Origin: an uncultured Verrucomicrobia subdivision 3 bacterium
Lineage (GTDB): Bacteria; Verrucomicrobiota; Verrucomicrobiae; Limisphaerales; UBA11358
Reading direction: 5' to 3'
DNA length: 12,424 nucleotides
NCBI GenBank assembly: GCA_903921455.1
Contig: CAIXPZ010000152.1
Span: forward strand, 1 to 12,424
Positions within the stretch are counted from its first letter, which is position 1, and the number at the start of each line of letters is the position of its first letter. A model generated the notes under the pieces. The model was not told the DNA's origin. It saw only the letters and a list, made by a program, of their open reading frames with translations, and searched no databases. Position numbers and translations under genes: made by a program. This document shows positions 151 to 10,247 of this stretch, in pieces.

Positions 151-732
151 TTGTATCAAGAAAACAATCTCTTGCCCGCGCAAGCCGTCGAAGCTTTTAT
201 TTCTAAGATCGAGAATTCAGAGGAGTGGCAACGGGCACTCACCGAGAATGGCGCGTTTGAAAAATGCCAGCGGATTTTGCGCGACCAAGTCCATTGGGGT
301 GAAGACTACGAAGGCCCGAACGACCCGCAACAACTGCTTGTTACGTTCCGCCAGGCGGCGATGAAACGCCACCGGCAGCACGTTGCCAATATCCACCGAA
401 ATTACGGACGAGAAATTGGATTGGTTTCAAAACGCGGCACGGTGAAATTGCGTTATGCCCCCACAGACGCACTGTTGAAAACTTTGTTGTTTGCTAATGT
501 CGGAAAGCGGATTGAGCTTAACCAATTCCTTTGCAAGCTGCATGGCCGATATGGTCTTGTGTTTGGCGACAAGGAAGCCGAACAAGTTTTGGCAAAGGAC
601 GAATTCGACAAAAAGGCGTTCCAGGCTAATTCACGCCGGCTTGAACAACGGCTTGGCAGCGTCGGGTTGCTACGTCGTCTTTCAGACGGCTGCGCTTATG
701 TCGTCAACCCATATCACGCGGAGGCCAAATGA
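151..732 (+). CDS. Unassigned protein encoded just upstream of the DptH-like gene
   Basis: This encodes a 193-aa soluble, charged protein with no signal peptide or membrane segment. I do not recognise its family. The C-terminal half (about residues 110-190) looks helical with a winged-helix flavour: the stretch containing RYGLVFGDKEAE is followed by a segment ending in GLLRRLSDGCAYVVNPY, like a small DNA-binding or adaptor domain. The last codons overlap the start of the 1751-aa gene (ATGA at 729-732), so the two are translationally coupled and their products probably work together. In dptFGH loci the gene before dptH is dptG; this protein holds that position but is much shorter than the DptG proteins I know, so the name is not applied. 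The start is uncertain: TTG at 151 has no ribosome-binding site, and the frame is open back to the TGA at 88-90 without an ATG or GTG. Confidence 0.75.
   Translation: MYQENNLLPAQAVEAFISKIENSEEWQRALTENGAFEKCQRILRDQVHWGEDYEGPNDPQQLLVTFRQAAMKRHRQHVANIHRNYGREIGLVSKRGTVKLRYAPTDALLKTLLFANVGKRIELNQFLCKLHGRYGLVFGDKEAEQVLAKDEFDKKAFQANSRRLEQRLGSVGLLRRLSDGCAYVVNPYHAEAK
720..724 (+). promoter_or_regulatory. Ribosome-binding site for the DptH-like gene
   Basis: GGAGG lies four bases before ATG 729, inside the end of the preceding gene. It fixes the start and supports translation coupled to the upstream gene. Confidence 0.75.
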
Positions 733-3700
733 CCAGCGATCAACTCATCGGCAGGGTGGCAGCTTCATATCTTCGCAACCGTCTCACCCAGGATGATTCC
801 TCGGGCGTAGCCCGATATTTGTTGGACTGTCTGACCGCCGACCAGACCGCCGCCATCGCAAAGGCTATTCTCGCAGATGCCAGCCTTGCCCAACTTGTCG
901 AAATAAAACTGCCTGTTCATTTTGTCGGCAGCCACGGATTACCGTCGGCGGTTTTGACTGAGGAACGCACGACCTATTTTCGAAATGCCGCTTGTGAAAA
1001 ATCAGCCCTCCTTGTGGCAAATACGGGTGACGACGAGGAACAATCTCTCAAAGAGTTGGTTCCAATCGGTGCGCAGCAGCTACAGGCTCATCCAGAACTT
1101 TGGGTGAGTCTTGCCACCGAAGGATTACCAATCACCGAACAGCATCAGGTTTGGTGGGTAAAAGCGCTCCAGGGATTGCTTGAAGTTCGTTCATTCGCGC
1201 TAGACCGCTTGGCCGACTACATCCTGCAAACCCGAACGGCGATTGAGGACGGCCAACCCATTCTTTACGCACTAGGCGTTGCTTTCCCAGCCCTCCGCGT
1301 CCCCAAGGACAGTGCCTTTTTTTGCAACTTAAACGAAAAAACCGCCGGCCAGCTTTCCAAGTGGAAGACTCTTTACGCGCAGGCTATAAAAAGGCGCTCC
1401 TGCTACCTCGTAAAGCAAACGCCCGCGCAGGCGTTGCTATTGGAGGAAGACCTTACCACCTCGTTTAATAAAGTTCAGGATGCCATCCCGGAAATACTGC
1501 ATCCGATTATCAAAACATTTATTCAAGCTGACAGCGGTTGGAATAAAGAGGCTGCGAATCTGGCAGAGTGTGAATGGGAATTGGTGAAGCCACTTTTCGA
1601 CGGTCTTAAAAAAGAGCAATTCAATCTCGGCAAGGCGACACTTGAGTTTTACGACGAGCGCGAGACAGATTTGTTGAGACCCGAAGAGCGTGATTACTTG
1701 GCTCGTTTGCGCGACAACAAGCGAAGCGAAGCGCAGGATGAAGACGAAGATTTTTACAGGCAGCACCGAAACGAATTGAAAGAGCTTCCGGCCCTTAAAG
1801 TAAGGTGGGACAGATTCATCTTCGGGACCCCCATCGAAACCGAAGATTTCCTTTTAGGCATTGCATTGTGCTTGGAATGGCTTTTCAACGAAGACATGCC
1901 GTCGTCTAAACGCCGACTGAAGATCACTTGCGACCGCCGCACAAAAAAAGACCTGAAGGACATAAACGAAGACGCTGCCCTGTTTTTTGTTTGCCGTTAC
2001 CGAGGACTGAAGTCGCTTTTGGGGAATCGCGTTTCTTGGGACGTTGGTGAATTGATGAATTTTGAGGCGTTGAGCGACCAATGGCGGCGGGCGACAAAAG
2101 CTTATCGAAATAATTCCGTCGCCAAATCAGCGTTACAGTTGAAATTTTATCTGGATCTAGAGGTAGAGCTTTCAACCGGCACAACCGAGACGTATTCCAA
2201 GCAACTTGTCTGGAAATACAATCCAAATGCTATCGCGAGTGAATTTCCCGGCGACTGGTCGCGGCTCGCCGACCATCCGCTTGTTTACAGTTGTGTCAAC
2301 CGCGAGCCGGTGAGCGGAAAGGGCCGCTATCAATCACTTGATCTCCGCAATGTCCGCACCCTTTATCCAGCTTACGGACAGGACCGGGGTTCGTTCGTCG
2401 CCACCTACCGGAAAGAATCCGACATTTCGCTGATTTGGCCAGCACATCTCTCGAACGCGCAGGAACAAGGGCTTGTTTCCGAGCAAACCGCCAGCAAACT
2501 TTTAGAACTATTCCAAGTCTTTCAGCAGAGCTATCAAATCGCCGTCAAAGGCTTCGTTGGGGAAGGTTTGTCGAACACCCATCTAGTAAAGCAAGCGGAG
2601 GACTACGGCGCACTGCTACACGCCATAAGTAGGGATGCCAAAGGCGACCGAAACAGGGAAAATCTTTTACGCCCGCTTCTACAAATCGGGACCGTCGTCG
2701 TTGACGGAGGCAGAGTCACCGCCATTGTTGCCCCCTGGCAGCCACTTCGTCTCGCGGCAATTGCAACCAAAGCAATCCAAGTTGCATCCCTGGTGAGGTA
2801 TTTGTTGACCGCCGAAAGCGTGTTTTTTGGCGATCCGCCTTTATTTTTCAAAGAACTTGAACAGGAGTTGTCGCATCCTTTCTACCCCGAAATTGTGCTG
2901 GGCTGGCATGAAAAAAAACCCGAACTTTTGTCGCTGACCGACCATCATCTTGATTACAGCCTTCACGAATCCCCCGTCATCAACAACGACGGGTTTGACG
3001 ACACGAACGAAAACCCCTCTGAAACCTCATTGCTCGTTCTCGATTTGACCAAACGCTTCTTATCGCTCTATCCACATGAGCGGGCCAATCTCTCCGTTGT
3101 TCTTTACAACTGCGATTCCGCCCGACTGCCCTATGCCCTCGTGGACAAGATGAACGAACTTCACGAAGACGAGGAGGACATGCGATGCCAGATCATTCTT
3201 CGCCATCGGGACGGGGTGAAGTTGCGCGACCTTTACGAGAAAATCATTGAATCATCCGATGCGGATGCGGACACGTTTGTTTCCAGTGAGGCCGCTAAAG
3301 ATTTTATGGCCCGGCTTCGCATCGGAATCATGGCTGACCAGGCCCCCGTGCCCGATCCCAAAGACGGCCCGCCTGCGGACATTGTTTTCTTACAGGATGT
3401 TATTGCGCGGCACGCAGGATTGGAATGGTATCTGGAAACATGCAATCCGATGGCTTCAGCGACCCTAATTCCGGCCCGGTGGTCCCGGCGGCGTCCGGCC
3501 GCAGCCGACGACATGAAGTCGGTTGTCTATCTTTGCTGCCCAATTCAGACGAAGGAAGGATGGTCTTTTACAACAGCCATCACAACTTTCATCAAAGGCG
3601 ATTGGGATGGCGTGGAAGGCAAGCGGTTACTGCCAGCACGGAAACTTGATTTCAACGACAATCAGACCGCGAGCATTTTCAAAGAGATTCATAATCTCGG

Positions 3701-5984
3701 CAATTGGGTAGTGAATTACGACGAGCTACTTGACCGTCGCCAGCTCCTTAACCAGAACGTCAAAGTCATCCGCTACAAACAAGGAACGACGCAGGGACGC
3801 AATGTTTTGATTTCTTCGACCGCGCCATTAAGTTTGCTCCGCTCTATGGTTTTCGGGCGGGTCAAGGATTTGAACCTTGAGTTGTCTGACTCTGAATACC
3901 GGGAACTCACTGAAAAGTTTATCAATGACGCCAACGAAATATCCGGTGACATCGTTTTGCGTGCGGCAAAGCGGGGACGCAATGCGAGTGAATTGATGGG
4001 GGTTGTATTGAGCCGTTACATGATTCGGCACGAACTCGGCACCAATCGCCGCTTTGGCTGGTATTTCTTGGATGACTATGCGGAGTGGCTTGGTCAACGC
4101 GAAGAACAAATCGCTGACATTCTCGCTCTCACCCCGGAACAGACACTAGATGGAAAGATGCAGCTTGCTGTCATCATCTCCGAAGCAAAATACATTGATG
4201 CCGCAAGCCTTGCCGCCAAACGCAAGGAATCCCAGAAACAACTGCGCGATACGGTTCGGCGCATTAACGACGCCATATTCGGCGACCCCAAACGCCTTGA
4301 CCGCGATTTGTGGCTATCGCGGTTTTCAGACTTGATGCTCAACGGGATTCAATTCCCAGCCAATTCGCCAATTGACCTGGCTGCGTGGCGCAGGGCTGTG
4401 CGCGAAGGCGAGTGCTCAATTCACTTGCGAGGTTATTCCCACATTTTTGTCTCAGGGCCATCCGACTCCCCCGAATGTTCCGACTTTGCCGCTGTTGCCG
4501 AAACCGACCAGTCATATCAGGAGGTATATTCGAGGGCGCGGTTGCGCGAATTGGTATTGGGCTACTGGAAAAACAGCGATCCAACCTCCATCCGAAAAGC
4601 CGTGGCCTCTACCGACATTTGGAAGGAACAAATCTATCGGCGACCTTCGGATCGTGTTCAGATTATCCAGCAACGTCCTACTAGCGACGAACAGCCAAGC
4701 CGCAACGCAACGCCGGCAAAAAGTGAGCCAGCGAAAGCCAAACCGGACGCAACGGCTCCCTCACCGGCCAAACCCTCTATGCCAACGCCAAAAAATCAAG
4801 ATGCACAGGCCGTTGCCGAGCCGATTTCCAATGGCGTATGGGCTTCCCCAAAAATCGGTAAGTTGCTCGCTGACTATCAAGGTGGCACGCAGGACTCCGC
4901 CGCCGAACTGGAATGGCTCAAGCAGGTTGAAAGCCTGTGCAAGGGTGCTCTACAACAATTCCAGTTTCAGTCCAAACTCCTCAGCAGCACTCTGACGCCG
5001 AATGCAGCGCTCCTAAAGTTCCAAGGGAGTGCCAACCTGACCGTCGAACAAGTTCTCCGCCGCCGTTCCGAATTTCTCACCACGCACAAGTTGAACGTGA
5101 TTTCTGTCCGTGCCGAACCTGGTATTGTGGCAATCGCAATAGCCCGGACAAATCGGCGAGTCCTACACCTACCTGAAGTGTGGAAGAGCTGGAATTCTAA
5201 TTGTGTAAATGGAAACCATGATTTGCTGATTGCGATCAAAGAAGAGGACAGCAGCCATTTATTCCTTTCTCCGAAAGCGAACGCGCCTCACACCTTAATT
5301 GCCGGCTCCACTGGCAGCGGAAAGTCCGTGCTGATGCAGAACATCATTTTGGGCATCGCTTGCACAAACACGCCTGACCAAGCCAAGATTGTCCTGATTG
5401 ACCCCAAACAGGGTGTTGACTATTTCGCCTTTGACGGACTGCCCCATTTGCAGGGAGGCATTATCGAAGACCAGGATAACGCCATACTCACCTTGAATCA
5501 GCTTGTCGAGGAAATGAACCGGCGTTATTCGGTCCTAAAAGAAAACCGGGTTTCAAACATTTTTGACCTCAATAACAAACCCAACCCCACCGAGCGACTA
5601 CCGTTTCTTTGGGTCATCCATGACGAGTTCGCCGAGTGGATGATGACGGAACAATATGCCGATGCCGTGTCCGACATTGTCGGCAGGCTTGGTGTTAAGG
5701 CACGGGCCGCAGGAATATCGCTGGTGTTTGCCGCACAACGCCCCGATGCCAACGTAATGCCAATGCAGCTTCGGGCTAACCTTGGGAATCGTTTAGTGTT
5801 ACGCGTGGACGGCGAAGGCACGTCCGAAATTGCCCTGGGTGAGAAAGGAGCGGAGAGGCTTCTCGGCAAAGGACATTTGGCTGCAAAACTGGAGGGAGAA
5901 CCGTCCGTTATTTTCGCCCAAGTTCCATTTGTTGATTCAACTTTCTTGGCGGAAACGGTCAGTGCCTTAAAGAGTGCGGCGTGA
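729..5984 (+). CDS. dptH: DptH-like phosphorothioation-dependent restriction protein with C-terminal FtsK motor
   Basis: This encodes a 1751-aa cytoplasmic protein. Residues 1-1100 match no domain I can name. A candidate PD-(D/E)xK nuclease core follows: D1130 in ADIL and E1152/K1154 in ISEAKY. Residues about 1317-1370 are a Pro/Ala/Lys-rich linker. From about 1390 there is a FtsK/SpoIIIE-type motor: a beta-domain-like segment with PGIVAIAIA, Walker A AGSTGSGKS at 1525-1533, Walker B LWVIHDEF with D1632/E1633, and AAQRP at 1668-1672 as the sensor. DptH of Dnd restriction systems is a protein of about this size with a C-terminal FtsK-like ATPase; it acts with DptF and DptG against DNA lacking phosphorothioate modification. 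The DndA-like desulfurase next door supports that reading. A FtsK-fused protein of another defence system is the alternative, since dptF, dptG and dndBCDE are not visible. The start is fixed by GGAGG and the ATGA overlap. Confidence 0.65.
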   Translation: MTSDQLIGRVAASYLRNRLTQDDSSGVARYLLDCLTADQTAAIAKAILADASLAQLVEIKLPVHFVGSHGLPSAVLTEERTTYFRNAACEKSALLVANTGDDEEQSLKELVPIGAQQLQAHPELWVSLATEGLPITEQHQVWWVKALQGLLEVRSFALDRLADYILQTRTAIEDGQPILYALGVAFPALRVPKDSAFFCNLNEKTAGQLSKWKTLYAQAIKRRSCYLVKQTPAQALLLEEDLTTSFNKVQDAIPEILHPIIKTFIQADSGWNKEAANLAECEWELVKPLFDGLKKEQFNLGKATLEFYDERETDLLRPEERDYLARLRDNKRSEAQDEDEDFYRQHRNELKELPALKVRWDRFIFGTPIETEDFLLGIALCLEWLFNEDMPSSKRRLKITCDRRTKKDLKDINEDAALFFVCRYRGLKSLLGNRVSWDVGELMNFEALSDQWRRATKAYRNNSVAKSALQLKFYLDLEVELSTGTTETYSKQLVWKYNPNAIASEFPGDWSRLADHPLVYSCVNREPVSGKGRYQSLDLRNVRTLYPAYGQDRGSFVATYRKESDISLIWPAHLSNAQEQGLVSEQTASKLLELFQVFQQSYQIAVKGFVGEGLSNTHLVKQAEDYGALLHAISRDAKGDRNRENLLRPLLQIGTVVVDGGRVTAIVAPWQPLRLAAIATKAIQVASLVRYLLTAESVFFGDPPLFFKELEQELSHPFYPEIVLGWHEKKPELLSLTDHHLDYSLHESPVINNDGFDDTNENPSETSLLVLDLTKRFLSLYPHERANLSVVLYNCDSARLPYALVDKMNELHEDEEDMRCQIILRHRDGVKLRDLYEKIIESSDADADTFVSSEAAKDFMARLRIGIMADQAPVPDPKDGPPADIVFLQDVIARHAGLEWYLETCNPMASATLIPARWSRRRPAAADDMKSVVYLCCPIQTKEGWSFTTAITTFIKGDWDGVEGKRLLPARKLDFNDNQTASIFKEIHNLGNWVVNYDELLDRRQLLNQNVKVIRYKQGTTQGRNVLISSTAPLSLLRSMVFGRVKDLNLELSDSEYRELTEKFINDANEISGDIVLRAAKRGRNASELMGVVLSRYMIRHELGTNRRFGWYFLDDYAEWLGQREEQIADILALTPEQTLDGKMQLAVIISEAKYIDAASLAAKRKESQKQLRDTVRRINDAIFGDPKRLDRDLWLSRFSDLMLNGIQFPANSPIDLAAWRRAVREGECSIHLRGYSHIFVSGPSDSPECSDFAAVAETDQSYQEVYSRARLRELVLGYWKNSDPTSIRKAVASTDIWKEQIYRRPSDRVQIIQQRPTSDEQPSRNATPAKSEPAKAKPDATAPSPAKPSMPTPKNQDAQAVAEPISNGVWASPKIGKLLADYQGGTQDSAAELEWLKQVESLCKGALQQFQFQSKLLSSTLTPNAALLKFQGSANLTVEQVLRRRSEFLTTHKLNVISVRAEPGIVAIAIARTNRRVLHLPEVWKSWNSNCVNGNHDLLIAIKEEDSSHLFLSPKANAPHTLIAGSTGSGKSVLMQNIILGIACTNTPDQAKIVLIDPKQGVDYFAFDGLPHLQGGIIEDQDNAILTLNQLVEEMNRRYSVLKENRVSNIFDLNNKPNPTERLPFLWVIHDEFAEWMMTEQYADAVSDIVGRLGVKARAAGISLVFAAQRPDANVMPMQLRANLGNRLVLRVDGEGTSEIALGEKGAERLLGKGHLAAKLEGEPSVIFAQVPFVDSTFLAETVSALKSAA

Positions 5985-6006
5985 CCCAGGACGTTGCTTC
6001 CAGCGT

Positions 6007-7137
6007 TCAAGCGCGAAGCATTGCAACGCTTTTCACCAACGCCGTTACGCAGGCATCCACATCATTTGTCGTTGAATCAATCCCAAGGGAAAATCGCAAA
6101 GATTGACGGGCCATCAAGCCGTCCGGTTTCATGGCCTTGATAACGTGAGACGGCCCATCAGAATCACCCAAGCAAGCCGAGCCTTTAGAAGCACAAATGC
6201 CAGCTTGATCCAGCATGGCGAGCAGTGCATCTGATTCGACCCCACGAAACGCGATGTTTGTAGTGTTTGACAATCGAAGGCTCGGATGGCCGTTGATTTC
6301 TGTATTGGCAATTCCGTCGAGAATTTCCGATTCCAACTTGTCGCGCAACGGCAACACTTTCGCATTGAATGTCGGTAGATCCTCCATTGCAATTTCAGCG
6401 GCTTTTCCAATTCCCACAATTAAGGGAAGATTTTCCGTTCCACCACGCCGACCATTCTCTTGATGCCCTCCGAAAAGAAAGGGCACGAACGGGGTTTTCT
6501 CCCGAATATACAGAGCGCCCACTCCCTTTGGGGCAAAGAATTTGTGACCCGATATTGAAAGGAAATCTACCGGAGTTCGCCGAATATCAATTGGCAGCTT
6601 GCCCGCCATTTGCACGGCGTCGCAGTGAAACAAAACACCACGCTCTTGGCACAATTCCGCGATTTGTTGAACCGGAAACAGAACACCAGTTTCATTGTTG
6701 GCCCAAATCAAAGATACGATTGCTGTTTGTTCGGTGAGCGCATTCTTTAAATCTGTCATGCTCAATAATCCGCAACGGTCCACTGGTAGTTTTGTAACGC
6801 GATAGCCGTCCTTTTCTAATTCTTGGCAGTGATTCAAAATCGAGGAATGTTCAACGGCAGAGGTGACGATGTGGCGTTTTCCAGGGTTCGCTTTGAGGGC
6901 TGCCTGAAGCGCTGAATTATTGCTTTCCGTGGCGCAAGAAGTGAAAAGGATTTCATCCGGGAGCGAACCGATCAACGCCGCCACTTTTTCGCGAGCTGCC
7001 AGGATGGTCTGTTTGTGCTTTGAACCGAAACGATACGCGCTCGATGGATTGCCCCAGTCATCGCAAAAGAATGGGCGCATTGCCTCGAAAACTTCAGGCG
7101 ATGCCGGCGTTGTTGCGTTGTAATCAAAATAGATCAC
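6007..7137 (-). CDS. dndA: Cysteine desulfurase, DndA/IscS-like
   Basis: This encodes a 376-aa PLP-dependent class V aminotransferase-fold enzyme that takes sulfur from L-cysteine as an enzyme persulfide. Visible family features are IYFDYNATTP at the N-terminus, H97 (VEHSS), D173 and Q176 (HCDAVQ), the PLP lysine K199 in SGHKF, GGTEN at 232-236, the sulfur-carrying C322 in GSACLG, and R348 in LRFSLG. The length is normal for DndA/IscS/NifS proteins. Lying tail to tail with the DptH-like gene, only 22 bases away, it most likely feeds sulfur to phosphorothioate modification of DNA (the DndA role). A house-keeping IscS/NifS is less likely because no iscU, nifU or iscR is nearby. The start is GTG, overlapping the stop of a three-codon ORF. 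No terminator separates it from the convergent gene. Confidence 0.85.
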   Translation of the reverse strand: MIYFDYNATTPASPEVFEAMRPFFCDDWGNPSSAYRFGSKHKQTILAAREKVAALIGSLPDEILFTSCATESNNSALQAALKANPGKRHIVTSAVEHSSILNHCQELEKDGYRVTKLPVDRCGLLSMTDLKNALTEQTAIVSLIWANNETGVLFPVQQIAELCQERGVLFHCDAVQMAGKLPIDIRRTPVDFLSISGHKFFAPKGVGALYIREKTPFVPFLFGGHQENGRRGGTENLPLIVGIGKAAEIAMEDLPTFNAKVLPLRDKLESEILDGIANTEINGHPSLRLSNTTNIAFRGVESDALLAMLDQAGICASKGSACLGDSDGPSHVIKAMKPDGLMARQSLRFSLGIDSTTNDVDACVTALVKSVAMLRA

Positions 7138-7963: not shown

Positions 7964-8133
7964 CCCCCTTCGCAGAAACTTCCCCGCATCAATTCCCCCG
8001 TGCCGGACTCCGCCTTGAAACGGTGAAGATTCTGCTCTCCCATGGGCGCTCACTTGTGAAGTTATTTTCGCACCGTTGCGCAGGCTCCACTCTGGCTCCA
8101 TAACTCCACAAGAGAGCGACCCGCACCGGAAAT
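7947..8133. other. Gene-free stretch before the hairpin array
   Basis: This stretch has no supported gene. It is C-rich at its left end and otherwise unremarkable. The minus-strand open frame across 7940-8239 runs through the palindromic repeats and has no ribosome-binding site, so I do not call it. Confidence 0.5.
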
Positions 8134-8249
8134 GGGCGCGAGGCTTCGCCCGCCCAGGACCAAGCAATAGGCCGCGTGACTTCGTCCGGCCAAGACAGGC
8201 ATTAGCCCGCGATGCTTCGCACGGGCAAGACATCAGCAATATGCCGCGA
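8134..8249. repeat. REP-like tandem array of bulged hairpins (three full units plus half a fourth)
   Basis: Three 22-bp palindromes lie at 8134-8155, 8170-8191 and 8205-8226, with a fourth half starting at 8242. They start 35-37 bp apart. Each has a 5-bp outer stem, an inner stretch of exactly 12 nt containing a short CGA/TCG (or CG/CG) stem, and a 2-nt bulge on the 3' side. The outer stems are GGGCG/CGCCC, GGCCG/CGGCC and GCCCG/CGGGC, so the sequence changes but pairing is kept. Spacers are similar: (A/G)GAC followed by GCAATAG-like ends. Structure and setting resemble REP sequences, which are intergenic, palindromic and known targets of IS110 elements. The fourth unit is interrupted by the insertion sequence. 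Confidence 0.75.
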
Positions 8250-8285
8250 GCTATTCTCTGGTTTGTAAATTATTTTTTATGGGAG

Positions 8286-9551
8286 TTATTCACCAGTTTT
8301 GGCCGGTGTTAGATTGACCAACGACAACACCCACGAGCCATGCTTCTGCTGGTTGCGAGCGTGCAATTCGGCATCATACGGTTTTTTATCCACGATGATG
8401 CGAAAGACGATTTTGAGTAGCCTTTGAGCCAGGCACCGCAGGGCACAGGCGTGACTCATGCCTTCGGCGCGCTTCTTGTTGTAATAAACCTCCCCCCACG
8501 GGCTGGCGCGGTGGAAAGTATCCGCCCACAGATGGACGGTGTGGCGTAAAAATTTGTCGCAGGCCCGCCGCATTTTGACCGTGTGGTGCTGGCCGGATTG
8601 GAAACTGATGGGGGCAGTGCCCGCGAACGCTTGCAGCACCTCCGGATTGTTGGCATACCTGCCGGGGTCGGAACCGATGGCGGCCAGCAGACGCGGGGCG
8701 AGTTTCGTTTTGGCTCCGGGCAGGGACGCAAACAGATGATGATCGGGATGCTGCGCAAAAAGCTCTGCAATTTTTTGACGATAGTCGTCCAGTTGCTGCT
8801 GCAAAGTTCGCAACAGCTTGCACAAGCTCACGGCCAGATGGCTTTTGACTTCAGTGATCGCGGCGGAGCCCTTGAACTGGTCAGCCCCGGCAAATACTTG
8901 GAGCCGATGTTCCAACGTGGCCGGCCGCCAGAGACGATGCAGGTGTAAAAACTTTTGCCAGCGCCGCTGACCGGCCTTGGTCAAGGCAGTTGGTGTGGGG
9001 AACGCGATGATGAAATCCCAAGTGTAGGATTGGGTCCAGTCATCGAAAGCCTCCAAAGCAGCGGGATAGTATTCGACCAATGCCTGCTGGAGTTGATTGA
9101 CCAGTTGTGTGCGTTGCGAAATCAAAACCACTTCATCCTGACACAGCCACTTGAGCTTGAGGCTGGCGTCGTCGGTAAGCTTTAGCGGCTTCCATTCATG
9201 TCCGTCCAGGCGCAACGCCTCGGCAAGCGCCCACGCATCCACATGGTCGGACTTGGCACCGCTGGGCATTTTGCGTTGCCGGTAACTTTTGGCCGCCACT
9301 GGGTTGACCGGATAGACCGTGCACTCATGTTGGAGCAAGTGATCCACCGCTGCCCCCTGATTGGTTTCAATCGCGAAGGCCAGACCGGTGAAGGCTGCCG
9401 TTTTATCCCGAAACTTCTGCCAGCCGCTCCGGGTGTGATCAAACTGAAAGTCGGCGACGATTTGTCCTTGTAGATCCACCACGACCACGGCGTGATGCTC
9501 ACGCCCCCAATCGAAGCCGCCATAACTGGTGATTTGTTGCGACGATTTCAT
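8286..9551 (-). CDS. IS110-family DEDD transposase/recombinase
   Basis: This encodes a 421-aa recombinase that moves the element with an RNA guide. The N-terminal RuvC-like DEDD domain shows D14 in GGFDWG, E62 in AIETNQG and D102/D105 in KSDHVDAWALAE. A helical middle part follows (about 125-265). The C-terminal Transposase_20-type domain shows SLPGAKTKLAPRLLAAIG at 276-293, FAGTAPISFQSG at 309-320 and a conserved tail to about 388. S319 of QSG is the best candidate for the serine that joins DNA in this family (inference). The start ATG 9551-9549 is chosen because AAAGGA lies six bases upstream. A longer in-frame reading to 9962 would run through the RNA leader and out of the element, so it is rejected. 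Length and both domains are complete. Confidence 0.92.
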   Translation of the reverse strand: MKSSQQITSYGGFDWGREHHAVVVVDLQGQIVADFQFDHTRSGWQKFRDKTAAFTGLAFAIETNQGAAVDHLLQHECTVYPVNPVAAKSYRQRKMPSGAKSDHVDAWALAEALRLDGHEWKPLKLTDDASLKLKWLCQDEVVLISQRTQLVNQLQQALVEYYPAALEAFDDWTQSYTWDFIIAFPTPTALTKAGQRRWQKFLHLHRLWRPATLEHRLQVFAGADQFKGSAAITEVKSHLAVSLCKLLRTLQQQLDDYRQKIAELFAQHPDHHLFASLPGAKTKLAPRLLAAIGSDPGRYANNPEVLQAFAGTAPISFQSGQHHTVKMRRACDKFLRHTVHLWADTFHRASPWGEVYYNKKRAEGMSHACALRCLAQRLLKIVFRIIVDKKPYDAELHARNQQKHGSWVLSLVNLTPAKTGE

Positions 9552-9557
9552 AATGTT

Positions 9558-9563
9558 TCCTTT
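9558..9563 (-). promoter_or_regulatory. Ribosome-binding site of the IS110 transposase
   Basis: AAAGGA on the minus strand lies six bases before ATG 9551-9549. It decides the start against the in-frame upstream ATG at 9575, which has no such site. Confidence 0.7.
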
Positions 9564-9582
9564 CTTGTTTGGCATCGTGACG

Positions 9583-9646
9583 CTGTCGTGAGTCGACCTA
9601 ATATAGGGAGCCTCGCAGGCTGTCATTCTCTCAGACTTTTTGACAG
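9583..9646 (-). ncRNA. Donor-binding loop of the bridge RNA
   Basis: The stems are 9583-9587 with 9642-9646, and 9591-9594 with 9634-9637. The left guide (RNA AGAGAAT, 9625-9631) equals the transposase-sense sequence of the element end at 8253-8259. The right guide (RNA ATATTAGG, 9597-9604) is complementary to the transposase-sense sequence of the other end at 9859-9866. The cap hairpin is 9609-9621. Confidence 0.82.
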
Positions 9647-9652
9647 GCGCCG

Positions 9653-9719
9653 CCAAGCGGGCCGGTGAGCTCGCGGTGATCCTTGCAGGATTTGGCTTCG
9701 CGGACCGTGATCCGCTTGG
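9653..9719 (-). ncRNA. Target-binding loop of the bridge RNA
   Basis: The outer stem is 9653-9660 with 9712-9719, and the inner stem 9663-9666 with 9704-9707. The left guide (RNA GCGAAGC, 9695-9701) equals the transposase-sense strand of the flank at 9866-9872. The right guide (RNA CCGCGAGCT, 9668-9676) is complementary to the transposase-sense strand of the flank at 8244-8252. The cap hairpin is 9679-9691. Polarity of both guides is as described for IS621. Confidence 0.85.
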
Positions 9720-9865
9720 GGCGATGCCGCCAGAATTTTTATATTCCAACGGCAAATTTTGTGCATAACTTTTTTCGCGCGCGGCACGTTTATTCACCAC
9801 AGGCTGCGGGGATCTCCCATGAGATCTCCTCGCCAGTGATGAAGTAACCGTGTAAACCATATTAG

Positions 9866-9894
9866 GCTTCGCCACGGCCAGGACATCGGCAATA
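9866..9894. repeat. Right half of the interrupted REP-like hairpin and its spacer
   Basis: GCTTCGCCACGGCC at 9866-9879 completes the fourth hairpin whose left half is at 8242-8252; GCCG pairs with CGGC. The spacer AGGACATCGGCAATA (9880-9894) matches the array spacers. A degenerate further unit may follow: GTCGTGAG at 9895, then AGCACG (9901-9906) pairing with CGTGCT (9919-9924). Confidence 0.75.
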
Positions 9895-9924
9895 GTCGTG
9901 AGCACGTCCAGCTTTCGCCGTGCT

Positions 9925-10247
9925 GCGCTTGCAAAACTTTCCGTCCTCACTGCAAAAACCAATTAGTCTGACCTCCACCGTTTTATTTTCCACTGCGTTG
10001 CACCCAAATCGTTGTAAGTCAGAAAAGGTCAACACGCCGAATTTCTTCAAGTGCGTTTTTAATCATTCCCGCTGCTGTCGTATTCAGCCTATCGCCCTTT
10101 CTGGGCCGACTTCACCGAGGGGCCTTCGTGGTTCCCTCCGACGGGATTCCTCCCACGGGCCGCCGTCGGTTGCGCGGCCTTGCTTCAGTGCAGGGCGATA
10201 GACCGAATACGAACAATCAAGCGCGGGAACTCTGGAAAAAAAACACT
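9925..10247. other. Gene-free stretch upstream of the radC gene row
   Basis: I call no gene here. The left part (9925-10077) is plain sequence with T-rich stretches, and the right part is the 135-bp inverted-repeat element described separately. A promoter for the rightward gene row probably lies here, but I cannot place it. Confidence 0.5.
10078..10212. repeat. 135-bp element with 20-bp imperfect inverted ends
   Basis: The left end, 10078-10097, and the right end, 10193-10212, are inverted copies matching at 18 of 20 positions, including TATCGCCC/GGGCGATA and TCGTATTC/GAATACGA. A second perfect stem, CCGACGG 10138-10144 with CCGTCGG 10163-10169, lies inside. No target duplication is visible. 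It may be a miniature mobile element, or a structured RNA or DNA regulatory element in the leader of the next gene, whose start is 35 bases away. Confidence 0.6.

Follow-up and report, generated by a model that had tools for sequence, protein, structure and literature searches.

An IS110-group element from a Verrucomicrobiota genome with a predicted left-end bridge RNA whose guides match both halves of its insertion site

The stretch of DNA analysed here (the window, 12,424 nucleotides from an uncultured Verrucomicrobia subdivision 3 bacterium) carries on its minus strand an IS110-family element of about 1.6 kb. This is almost certainly an IS110-group element with a bridge RNA in its left end, the guides of which mark both halves of the insertion site. 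The anatomy of the element, the covariation of guides with flanks, that of the donor and handshake positions, and the conservation of the RNA structure come from the present analysis; expression of the RNA, a circular intermediate and the recombination chemistry would be as in the published work on IS621. The kind of RNA is already known, and a constraint on the reading frame that crosses it sets this clade apart as a variant.

Anatomy of the element and its guide matches

The element and its predicted RNA comprise the following features, with window coordinates.

8286..9551, minus strand: transposase/recombinase of the IS110 family, 421 aa from the ATG at 9551
9859..9865, minus strand: left end of the element, core CT (9864-9865) and right-donor bases, from the letters
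8249..8259, minus strand: right end, left-donor bases, handshake AG (8251-8252) and core CT (8249-8250), from the letters
9583..9731, minus strand: predicted bridge RNA, approximate extent, upstream of the transposase, with 5' hairpin, target-binding loop and donor-binding loop
9653..9719, minus strand: target-binding loop with closing stem CCAAGCGG/CCGCTTGG, from fold and alignment consensus
9694..9701, minus strand: left target guide GCGAAGCC, its last base being the core C; equals flank 9865-9872
9679..9691, minus strand: capped hairpin ATCC-TGCAA-GGAT between the two target guides, from fold and alignment consensus
9670..9676, minus strand: right target guide CCGCGAG, pairing with CT-CGCGG; complement of 8244-8250
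9668..9669, minus strand: target-loop handshake guide CT, complementary to donor AG 8251-8252
9583..9646, minus strand: donor-binding loop, from fold and alignment consensus
9625..9631, minus strand: left donor guide AGAGAAT, equal to right-end bases 8253-8259
9598..9604, minus strand: right donor guide ATATTAG, complement of left-end CTAATAT
9597, minus strand: donor-loop handshake guide G, complementary to target P7 (C, 9866)
9866..9872, minus strand: left target GCGAAGC in the host flank, from the letters
8244..8248, minus strand: right target CGCGG in the host flank, from the letters

The transposase contains the Pfam domains DEDD_Tnp_IS110 (RuvC-like DEDD) and, at its C-terminus, Transposase_20 (Tnp_20), both above cut-off, scores 157.6 bits against the NCBIfam model NF033542, "IS110 family RNA-guided transposase" (cut-off 140), and has sequence matches in the PDB to IS621 and ISCro4. 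Five residues are invariant among 35 aligned proteins (D14, E62, D102, D105 and S319), of which D102/D105 and S319 align with D102/D105 and S241 of IS621 by our own count, with a two-residue chain offset allowed. The long left end (314 nt from core to ATG) and short right end (35 nt from stop to core) are the layout of the IS110 group and not of IS1111. The element thus belongs to the IS110 family and, within it, to the IS110 group. Both of its ends carry the core CT, as does the right end of 21 of 22 loci, the remaining one (L001) having CG under a search pattern that admitted only CT or CG.

The original prediction, made from the letters of the window, held that minus-strand 9695-9701 (GCGAAGC) equals 9866-9872 and that 9668-9676 (CCGCGAGCT) is the exact complement of 8244-8252 (AGCTCGCGG), with one guide sense and the other antisense on either side of a capped hairpin. 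All these letters and coordinates are correct, and in the predicted fold the two matches do flank the capped hairpin, inside the stem CCAAGCGG/CCGCTTGG. The extents need refinement: the left match, given as seven nucleotides, is really eight (GCGAAGCC, 9694-9701 against 9865-9872) and includes the core C, and the nine-base match, right in its letters, is not all flank, as the target contributes CGCGG (8244-8248), the core contributes CT (8249-8250), and the last two bases, AG (8251-8252), come from the right end of the element itself. These five target, two core and two element-end bases are the pairing of the finished product, donor-core-target. By analogy, the two extra bases CT 9669-9668, opposite AG 8252-8251, would occupy the handshake position of IS621, in the structures of which the target loop pairs with donor positions 6-7 after strand exchange, according to the portion of PMC11208158 available to us. 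The rejoined site is accordingly GGCGAAGC-CT-CGCGG, that is GGCGAAGCCTCGCGG, with one C more than the GGCGAAGCTCGCGG proposed earlier; in short form the target is GCGAAGC-CT-CGCGG, the longer stretch of the rejoined empty site being GGCGAAGCCTCGCGGC. The rejoined unit fits both guides fully.

When the 312-nt left end was shuffled 20,000 times with dinucleotides preserved, the left 7-mer arose in 1206 shuffles and the right 7-mer in 771, and both together, in order and 10-45 nt apart, in 3 of the 20,000. On the window alone the joint match is therefore very unlikely by chance, as had been claimed, and covariation in relatives is much stronger evidence.

The window's bridge RNA has a fold that is not striking by itself (z -1.59). 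A 26-locus alignment gives a consensus of 33 pairs, 21 of them with compensatory change; sliding the partners by 1-3 columns lowers the paired share of alignment cells from 96.5% to 26-47% and the covariation score from 0.574 to 0.069-0.135. Rfam at its own cut-offs gave no match anywhere in the window.

Covariation of guides, flanks and element ends

Relatives were gathered by a scan of genome contigs (15 loci) and by whole-genome searches and the regions these returned; further genome searches for extra loci gave nothing new, scanned viral contigs held no relatives of the element, and scanned plasmids held distant relatives only (best 36.2% identity). For the guide test 26 loci were compared, the window among them, with duplicate fetches, fragments and loci below 46% identity set aside. 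Guides were taken from fixed alignment columns and flanks from the element ends, the left flank being unusable in L003, L004, L006, L024, L040 and L063, and the right end absent in L008, L034, L040 and L103. At the five non-core positions of the right target 96 of 110 comparisons match in 22 loci (permuted mean 34.3, sd 6.5, maximum 64), and at the seven of the left target 113 of 140 match in 20 loci (permuted mean 68.3, sd 5.2, maximum 96), where the left target was scored at the best of four offsets and the permutations were given equal freedom. None of 100,000 permutations reached the observed score on either side, which supports the reading of these segments as target-binding guides that follow bridge RNA logic. 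With the window removed and one locus kept per distinct guide, the matches are 63/70 on the right (14 loci) and 103/126 on the left (18 loci), again with 0/100,000. Weak matches are confined to L001, L027 and L054 (3/7 each) and L103 (4/7) on the left, and to L001 (0/5), L009 and L010 (3/5 each) on the right. Relatives with other guides hence have other flanks that fit those guides, as the original prediction had expected, and target guides on opposite strands covary with the insertion, L001 being the exception.

No locus compared combines the same guides with an unrelated flank. L001, from genome G001, encodes a transposase 93% identical to that of the window and is the one relative with identical guides; its flanks together contain the same GCGAAGCCTCGCGG target, with a junction about 4 bp off, such that the left flank carries four extra bases, the right lacks about as many, and the right core reads CG instead of CT (L001, 2160-2200 and 3780-3810). 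The shift could stem from a displaced strand exchange or from rearrangement after insertion. Its flank is not unrelated sequence and so falls short of refuting the original prediction, but the displaced junction counts against guided insertion.

The donor side behaves in the same manner. At donor positions 3 and 7 the element ends agree with the donor guide in 21/21 loci (counted, not permuted); the target-loop handshake agrees with donor P7 in 21/22 loci (0/100,000 permutations) and the donor-loop handshake with target P7 in 17/22 (3/100,000). The handshake P6 shows no covariation in either loop (target loop 14/22, 4194/100,000; donor loop 8/22, 15,439/100,000). In L063 the donor end reads CTGGTAT, as expected from the altered donor guide of that locus, and because of this reading the locus had escaped the end-pattern search. 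The donor loop thus matches the joined element ends.

These data bear on three other accounts of the guide matches. The first, that the recombinase protein selects the site unaided, the RNA match being incidental, is very improbable, as transposases that are 50-69% identical use different targets, and these follow the RNA; the IS621 assays likewise show RNA dependence in the part of PMC11208160 at our disposal. Still less credible is an origin of the left end as a copy of the host flank made at landing, so that the matches reflect common descent and not guidance: the letters of guide and flank are indeed identical, but one guide is sense and the other antisense at the same structural positions in 26 aligned loci, and the donor guides match the element's own ends. 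Chance, or a palindromic make-up of the flank, draws on the GCGA that both guides share because the target is a palindrome and on the occurrence of single 7-mers in 4-6% of shuffles, but is already refuted by the covariation of guides and flanks over loci with different targets, 14/17 rejoined sites not being strong hairpins.

For the guided insertion that we prefer, the steps can be modelled on IS621. In the excised circle the right end would abut the left, and a promoter may arise there from a candidate -35 (TTTACA, 8264..8269, minus strand) and a candidate -10 (TATGGT, 9856-9861), elements that we take to be such and that lie 17 nt apart only in the circular form. Bridge RNA made from the circle would bind the recombinase, its donor loop pairing with the joined ends and its target loop with GCGAAGC-CT-CGCGG, which is a single unit of the lineage-specific hairpin repeat. 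Once the top strands had been cut after CT and had changed partners, the handshake bases would stabilise the resulting state. Through these pairings and the strand exchange the guides would therefore mark both halves of the insertion site.

We also observed that in L024, L028, L050-L052, L054 and L102 the right end measures 208-242 nt after the stop codon, all of these having right guides for CTTGAC-type targets.

The recombinase frame across the bridge RNA

Upstream of the transposase its frame continues without interruption:

9552..9863, minus strand: left end, stop-free in the transposase frame across the whole bridge RNA, with a conserved in-frame GTG at 9795-9797

The same frame lacks stops over the 282 nt upstream of the gene (or all that is available) in 22/26 loci, the exceptions being L010, L024, L040 and L050; the stops over this distance in the 26 loci number 8 in the transposase frame and 80 and 113 in the others. 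In the full-length left ends of the 22 loci with a recognised left end there are 4 stops in frame against 123 and 64, and 25 close loci give 5, 104 and 70 by frame. Measured from the core to the position of the first residue of the window's transposase, the left end has a length of 2 mod 3 in 21/22 loci, across 13 distinct lengths. L010 and L050, with one and three frame stops, are included in the 22-locus total and excluded from the two null models and the GTG counts. Permuting letters within alignment columns in the remaining 20 loci predicts 21.6 stops (minimum 10 in 1000) against 0 observed; under the same null frame 1 agrees with expectation (53 observed, 55.7 predicted) and frame 2 almost does (95 observed, 106.5 predicted, 9/1000 as low). 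Simulation along a tree with site-specific rates and composition predicts 21.3 stops (minimum 7 in 400), and 0/400 simulations gave none. The in-frame GTG is present in 20/20 aligned left ends and the transposase ATG in 19/20.

The depletion is absent from distant IS110 elements (14 loci; 21, 30 and 44 stops by frame, with none in frame in L038 and L110), from one annotated IS621 copy (2, 2 and 1 stops in 205 nt), from an 85%-identical relative (1, 1 and 2), and from two further IS110 genes (1, 3, 2 and 4, 1, 5). Held-out left ends were available as 18 fragments. L114 has a left end of 299 nt, 2 mod 3, with no in-frame stop, and L053 and L141, which are one place fetched twice with 77 nt available, have none either. 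Against the pattern stand L035 (three in-frame stops, with a start extrapolated over 62 unmatched residues), L038 (45% identical; one stop and a left-end candidate of 1 mod 3) and L119 (37%; three stops).

Selection on the amino acids of the extension is not supported, as the pooled pN/pS is 0.76 in frame and 0.98 and 0.80 in the other frames; the transposase gives 0.23 for the same nine pairs (which share members). In an AlphaFold model of modest quality (mean pLDDT 63) the first 84 residues have pLDDT below 50. Because the amino acids are hardly constrained and the confidence of the fold is so low, it seems to be the openness of the frame, rather than the peptide, that is under selection. 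Fusion to host genes as the cause of the open frame was considered and rejected: the median open host flank is 31.5 codons in frame against 41 in the other frames.

The reading we favour is that ribosomes would read through the bridge RNA into the recombinase, perhaps from the circle only. An AAAGGA before the ATG at 9551, seen by eye and presumably Shine-Dalgarno-like, suggests that a short form of the transposase is made too.

At window 9552-9962 the longest ORF called as transposase, of 558 aa, runs through the bridge RNA into the host flank, and the database proteins P0001 and P0003 likewise read through the bridge RNA. Among 24 aligned homologues (from 120 listed), 14, chosen for length, continue through the left end; since gene callers choose long frames, such extended proteins are no independent proof. 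In the titles and abstract openings of the open literature, subscription papers being outside the scope, we found no report of an open frame through a bridge RNA, and the phrase "reading frame" is absent from those portions of the text of PMC11208160 and PMC11187229 that were available.

Further upstream, in the circular arrangement, a start codon may lie in the right end. An ATG stands there exactly ten codons before the core and in phase in 14/22 loci, and at 13 and 8 codons in two more; it is found in 16/19 loci without a stop in the left-end frame and in 0/3 loci with stops. Among eight fragments in which the right end was found, the in-phase ATG (at 8, 10 or 11 codons) occurs in 7/7 at 48% identity or more and not in the distant one; here L055 and L056 are from one genome and identical over the printed stretch, and L035 has the right-end ATG despite its left-end stops. 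The window has ATA at this place, shifted by one base from the phase, and then a stop seven codons ahead of the core; it is without the right-end start, yet its left-end frame and in-frame GTG are intact. L001 has ATA at the same place plus an ATG one codon before its displaced core, and in L052 the start is shifted. Ahead of the GTG stops are few in every frame (0, 2 and 6), which makes the start in the right end less secure than the open frame that begins with the GTG. Coupling of the transposase stop to the right-end ATG was rejected, as the gap between them, where the ATG is present, spans from a 4-nt overlap to 194 nt.

These observations raise the possibility, to which we give an even chance, that in a clade mainly of Verrucomicrobiota the bridge RNA is nested in frame within a translated N-terminal extension of the recombinase. 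In most members only the excised circle would join right-end ATG, core, bridge RNA and recombinase; ribosomes would cross the guide RNA, the peptide, predicted to be disordered, would be free to vary whereas the RNA would not, and each transcript would be either guide or message. If the frame constraint stems from translation, an RNA guide and the enzyme it guides would be written in the same letters with a built-in switch of role. The finding also warns that gene callers can label such guide RNAs as protein.

By eye, a GGTGAATAAC-like motif with an inverted partner recurs in the left ends of the clade (for example at window 9785-9850), where it may hide the in-frame GTG within a hairpin; another GGTGAATAAC-like copy, also noted by eye, lies at the right end near the transposase stop.

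The hairpin repeat and comparison with known systems

The insertion site lies within a tandem array of period 35, next to intact units:

8130..8236, minus strand: three intact units (8130-8164, 8165-8199 and 8200-8236) of the ~35-bp hairpin repeat that the element interrupts, from the tandem repeat, folds, compensatory pairs and model hits

The view of the target as an interrupted hairpin is borne out by these neighbouring units, which fold alike (z -1.4, -1.6 and -2.5) and have a stem backed by compensatory changes; the rejoined window site does not itself fold with unusual stability (z 0.35). The common hairpin, with stems of 5 bp and 3 bp, a GAA loop and a bulge, was derived from the three intact window units, two units each from L097 and L098, and one beside L001; folds of single sequences do not choose the same pairs in every unit. 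Both sides change at 4/8 pairs, and the two core bases CT coincide with the end of the inner stem and the start of the bulge, one base each. The intact units differ from the 14-base site by 1, 3 and 1 mismatches.

A model of the repeat finds at least five strong copies in G001, a lower bound because scoring covered 150 first-look candidates in each genome (G001 had 1081); the second L097 unit scores highly with the model and is absent from the copies listed. Among the candidates scored in G002, G003 and G134 there is no copy of comparable strength. G001 also contains part of the same array without the element. The exact 14-base target is absent from four related genomes, and a 16-base target allowed two mismatches has 23 hits against 9 for the control in G001, 6 against 3 in G002, 36 against 25 in G003 and 11 against 13 in G004. 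Scanned phages have no match to the repeat. Judged by its sequence, the repeat is probably a lineage-specific family of ~35-bp hairpins and a candidate intergenic, REP-like target. A general preference of these elements for hairpins was tried as an explanation and rejected, as z falls below -2 in only 3/17 rejoined sites, with the window's not among them.

As far as the portions of PMC11208160 and PMC11208158 to hand describe it, the IS621 bridge RNA system resembles the present one in its DEDD and Tnp_20 domains, the long left end upstream of the gene, the two loops, the target and donor guides on opposite strands, the CT core and the handshake positions. Unlike in IS621, the target in the window is a hairpin repeat of a Verrucomicrobiota lineage, and the right guide pairs over seven bases including the core, where those sources give four for IS621 and more for some orthologues; unlike in the IS621 copy examined, the left end is open in the recombinase frame. 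The seekRNA of IS110/IS1111 elements is similar in being an RNA from the upstream non-coding region that matches both target strands, but in IS1111 it usually lies downstream with the guide order reversed, whereas the window RNA lies upstream (parts of PMC11187229). Insertion inside a short palindromic repeat recalls the insertion sequences in REP sequences of Tobes and Pareja 2006 (PMC1525189, in part); unlike there, a guide accounts for the choice of site, and most relatives lie outside strong hairpins (z below -2 in 3/17). A single raw sequence was enough to read the bridge RNA and its target correctly, and the pairing at target, donor and handshake positions was derived anew in a clade far from IS621.

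Beside the element, window 151-7137 holds a match to the C-terminal part of SspG, an FtsK-like SspH of 1751 aa, and DndA/SspA (PADLOC), genes that by their sequence are probably part of a defence system linked to DNA phosphorothioation. On the other side an inverted repeat, GTATTCAGCCTATCGCCCT / AGGGCGATAGACCGAATAC, flanks a G+C-rich stretch at window 10080-10210, as seen by eye.
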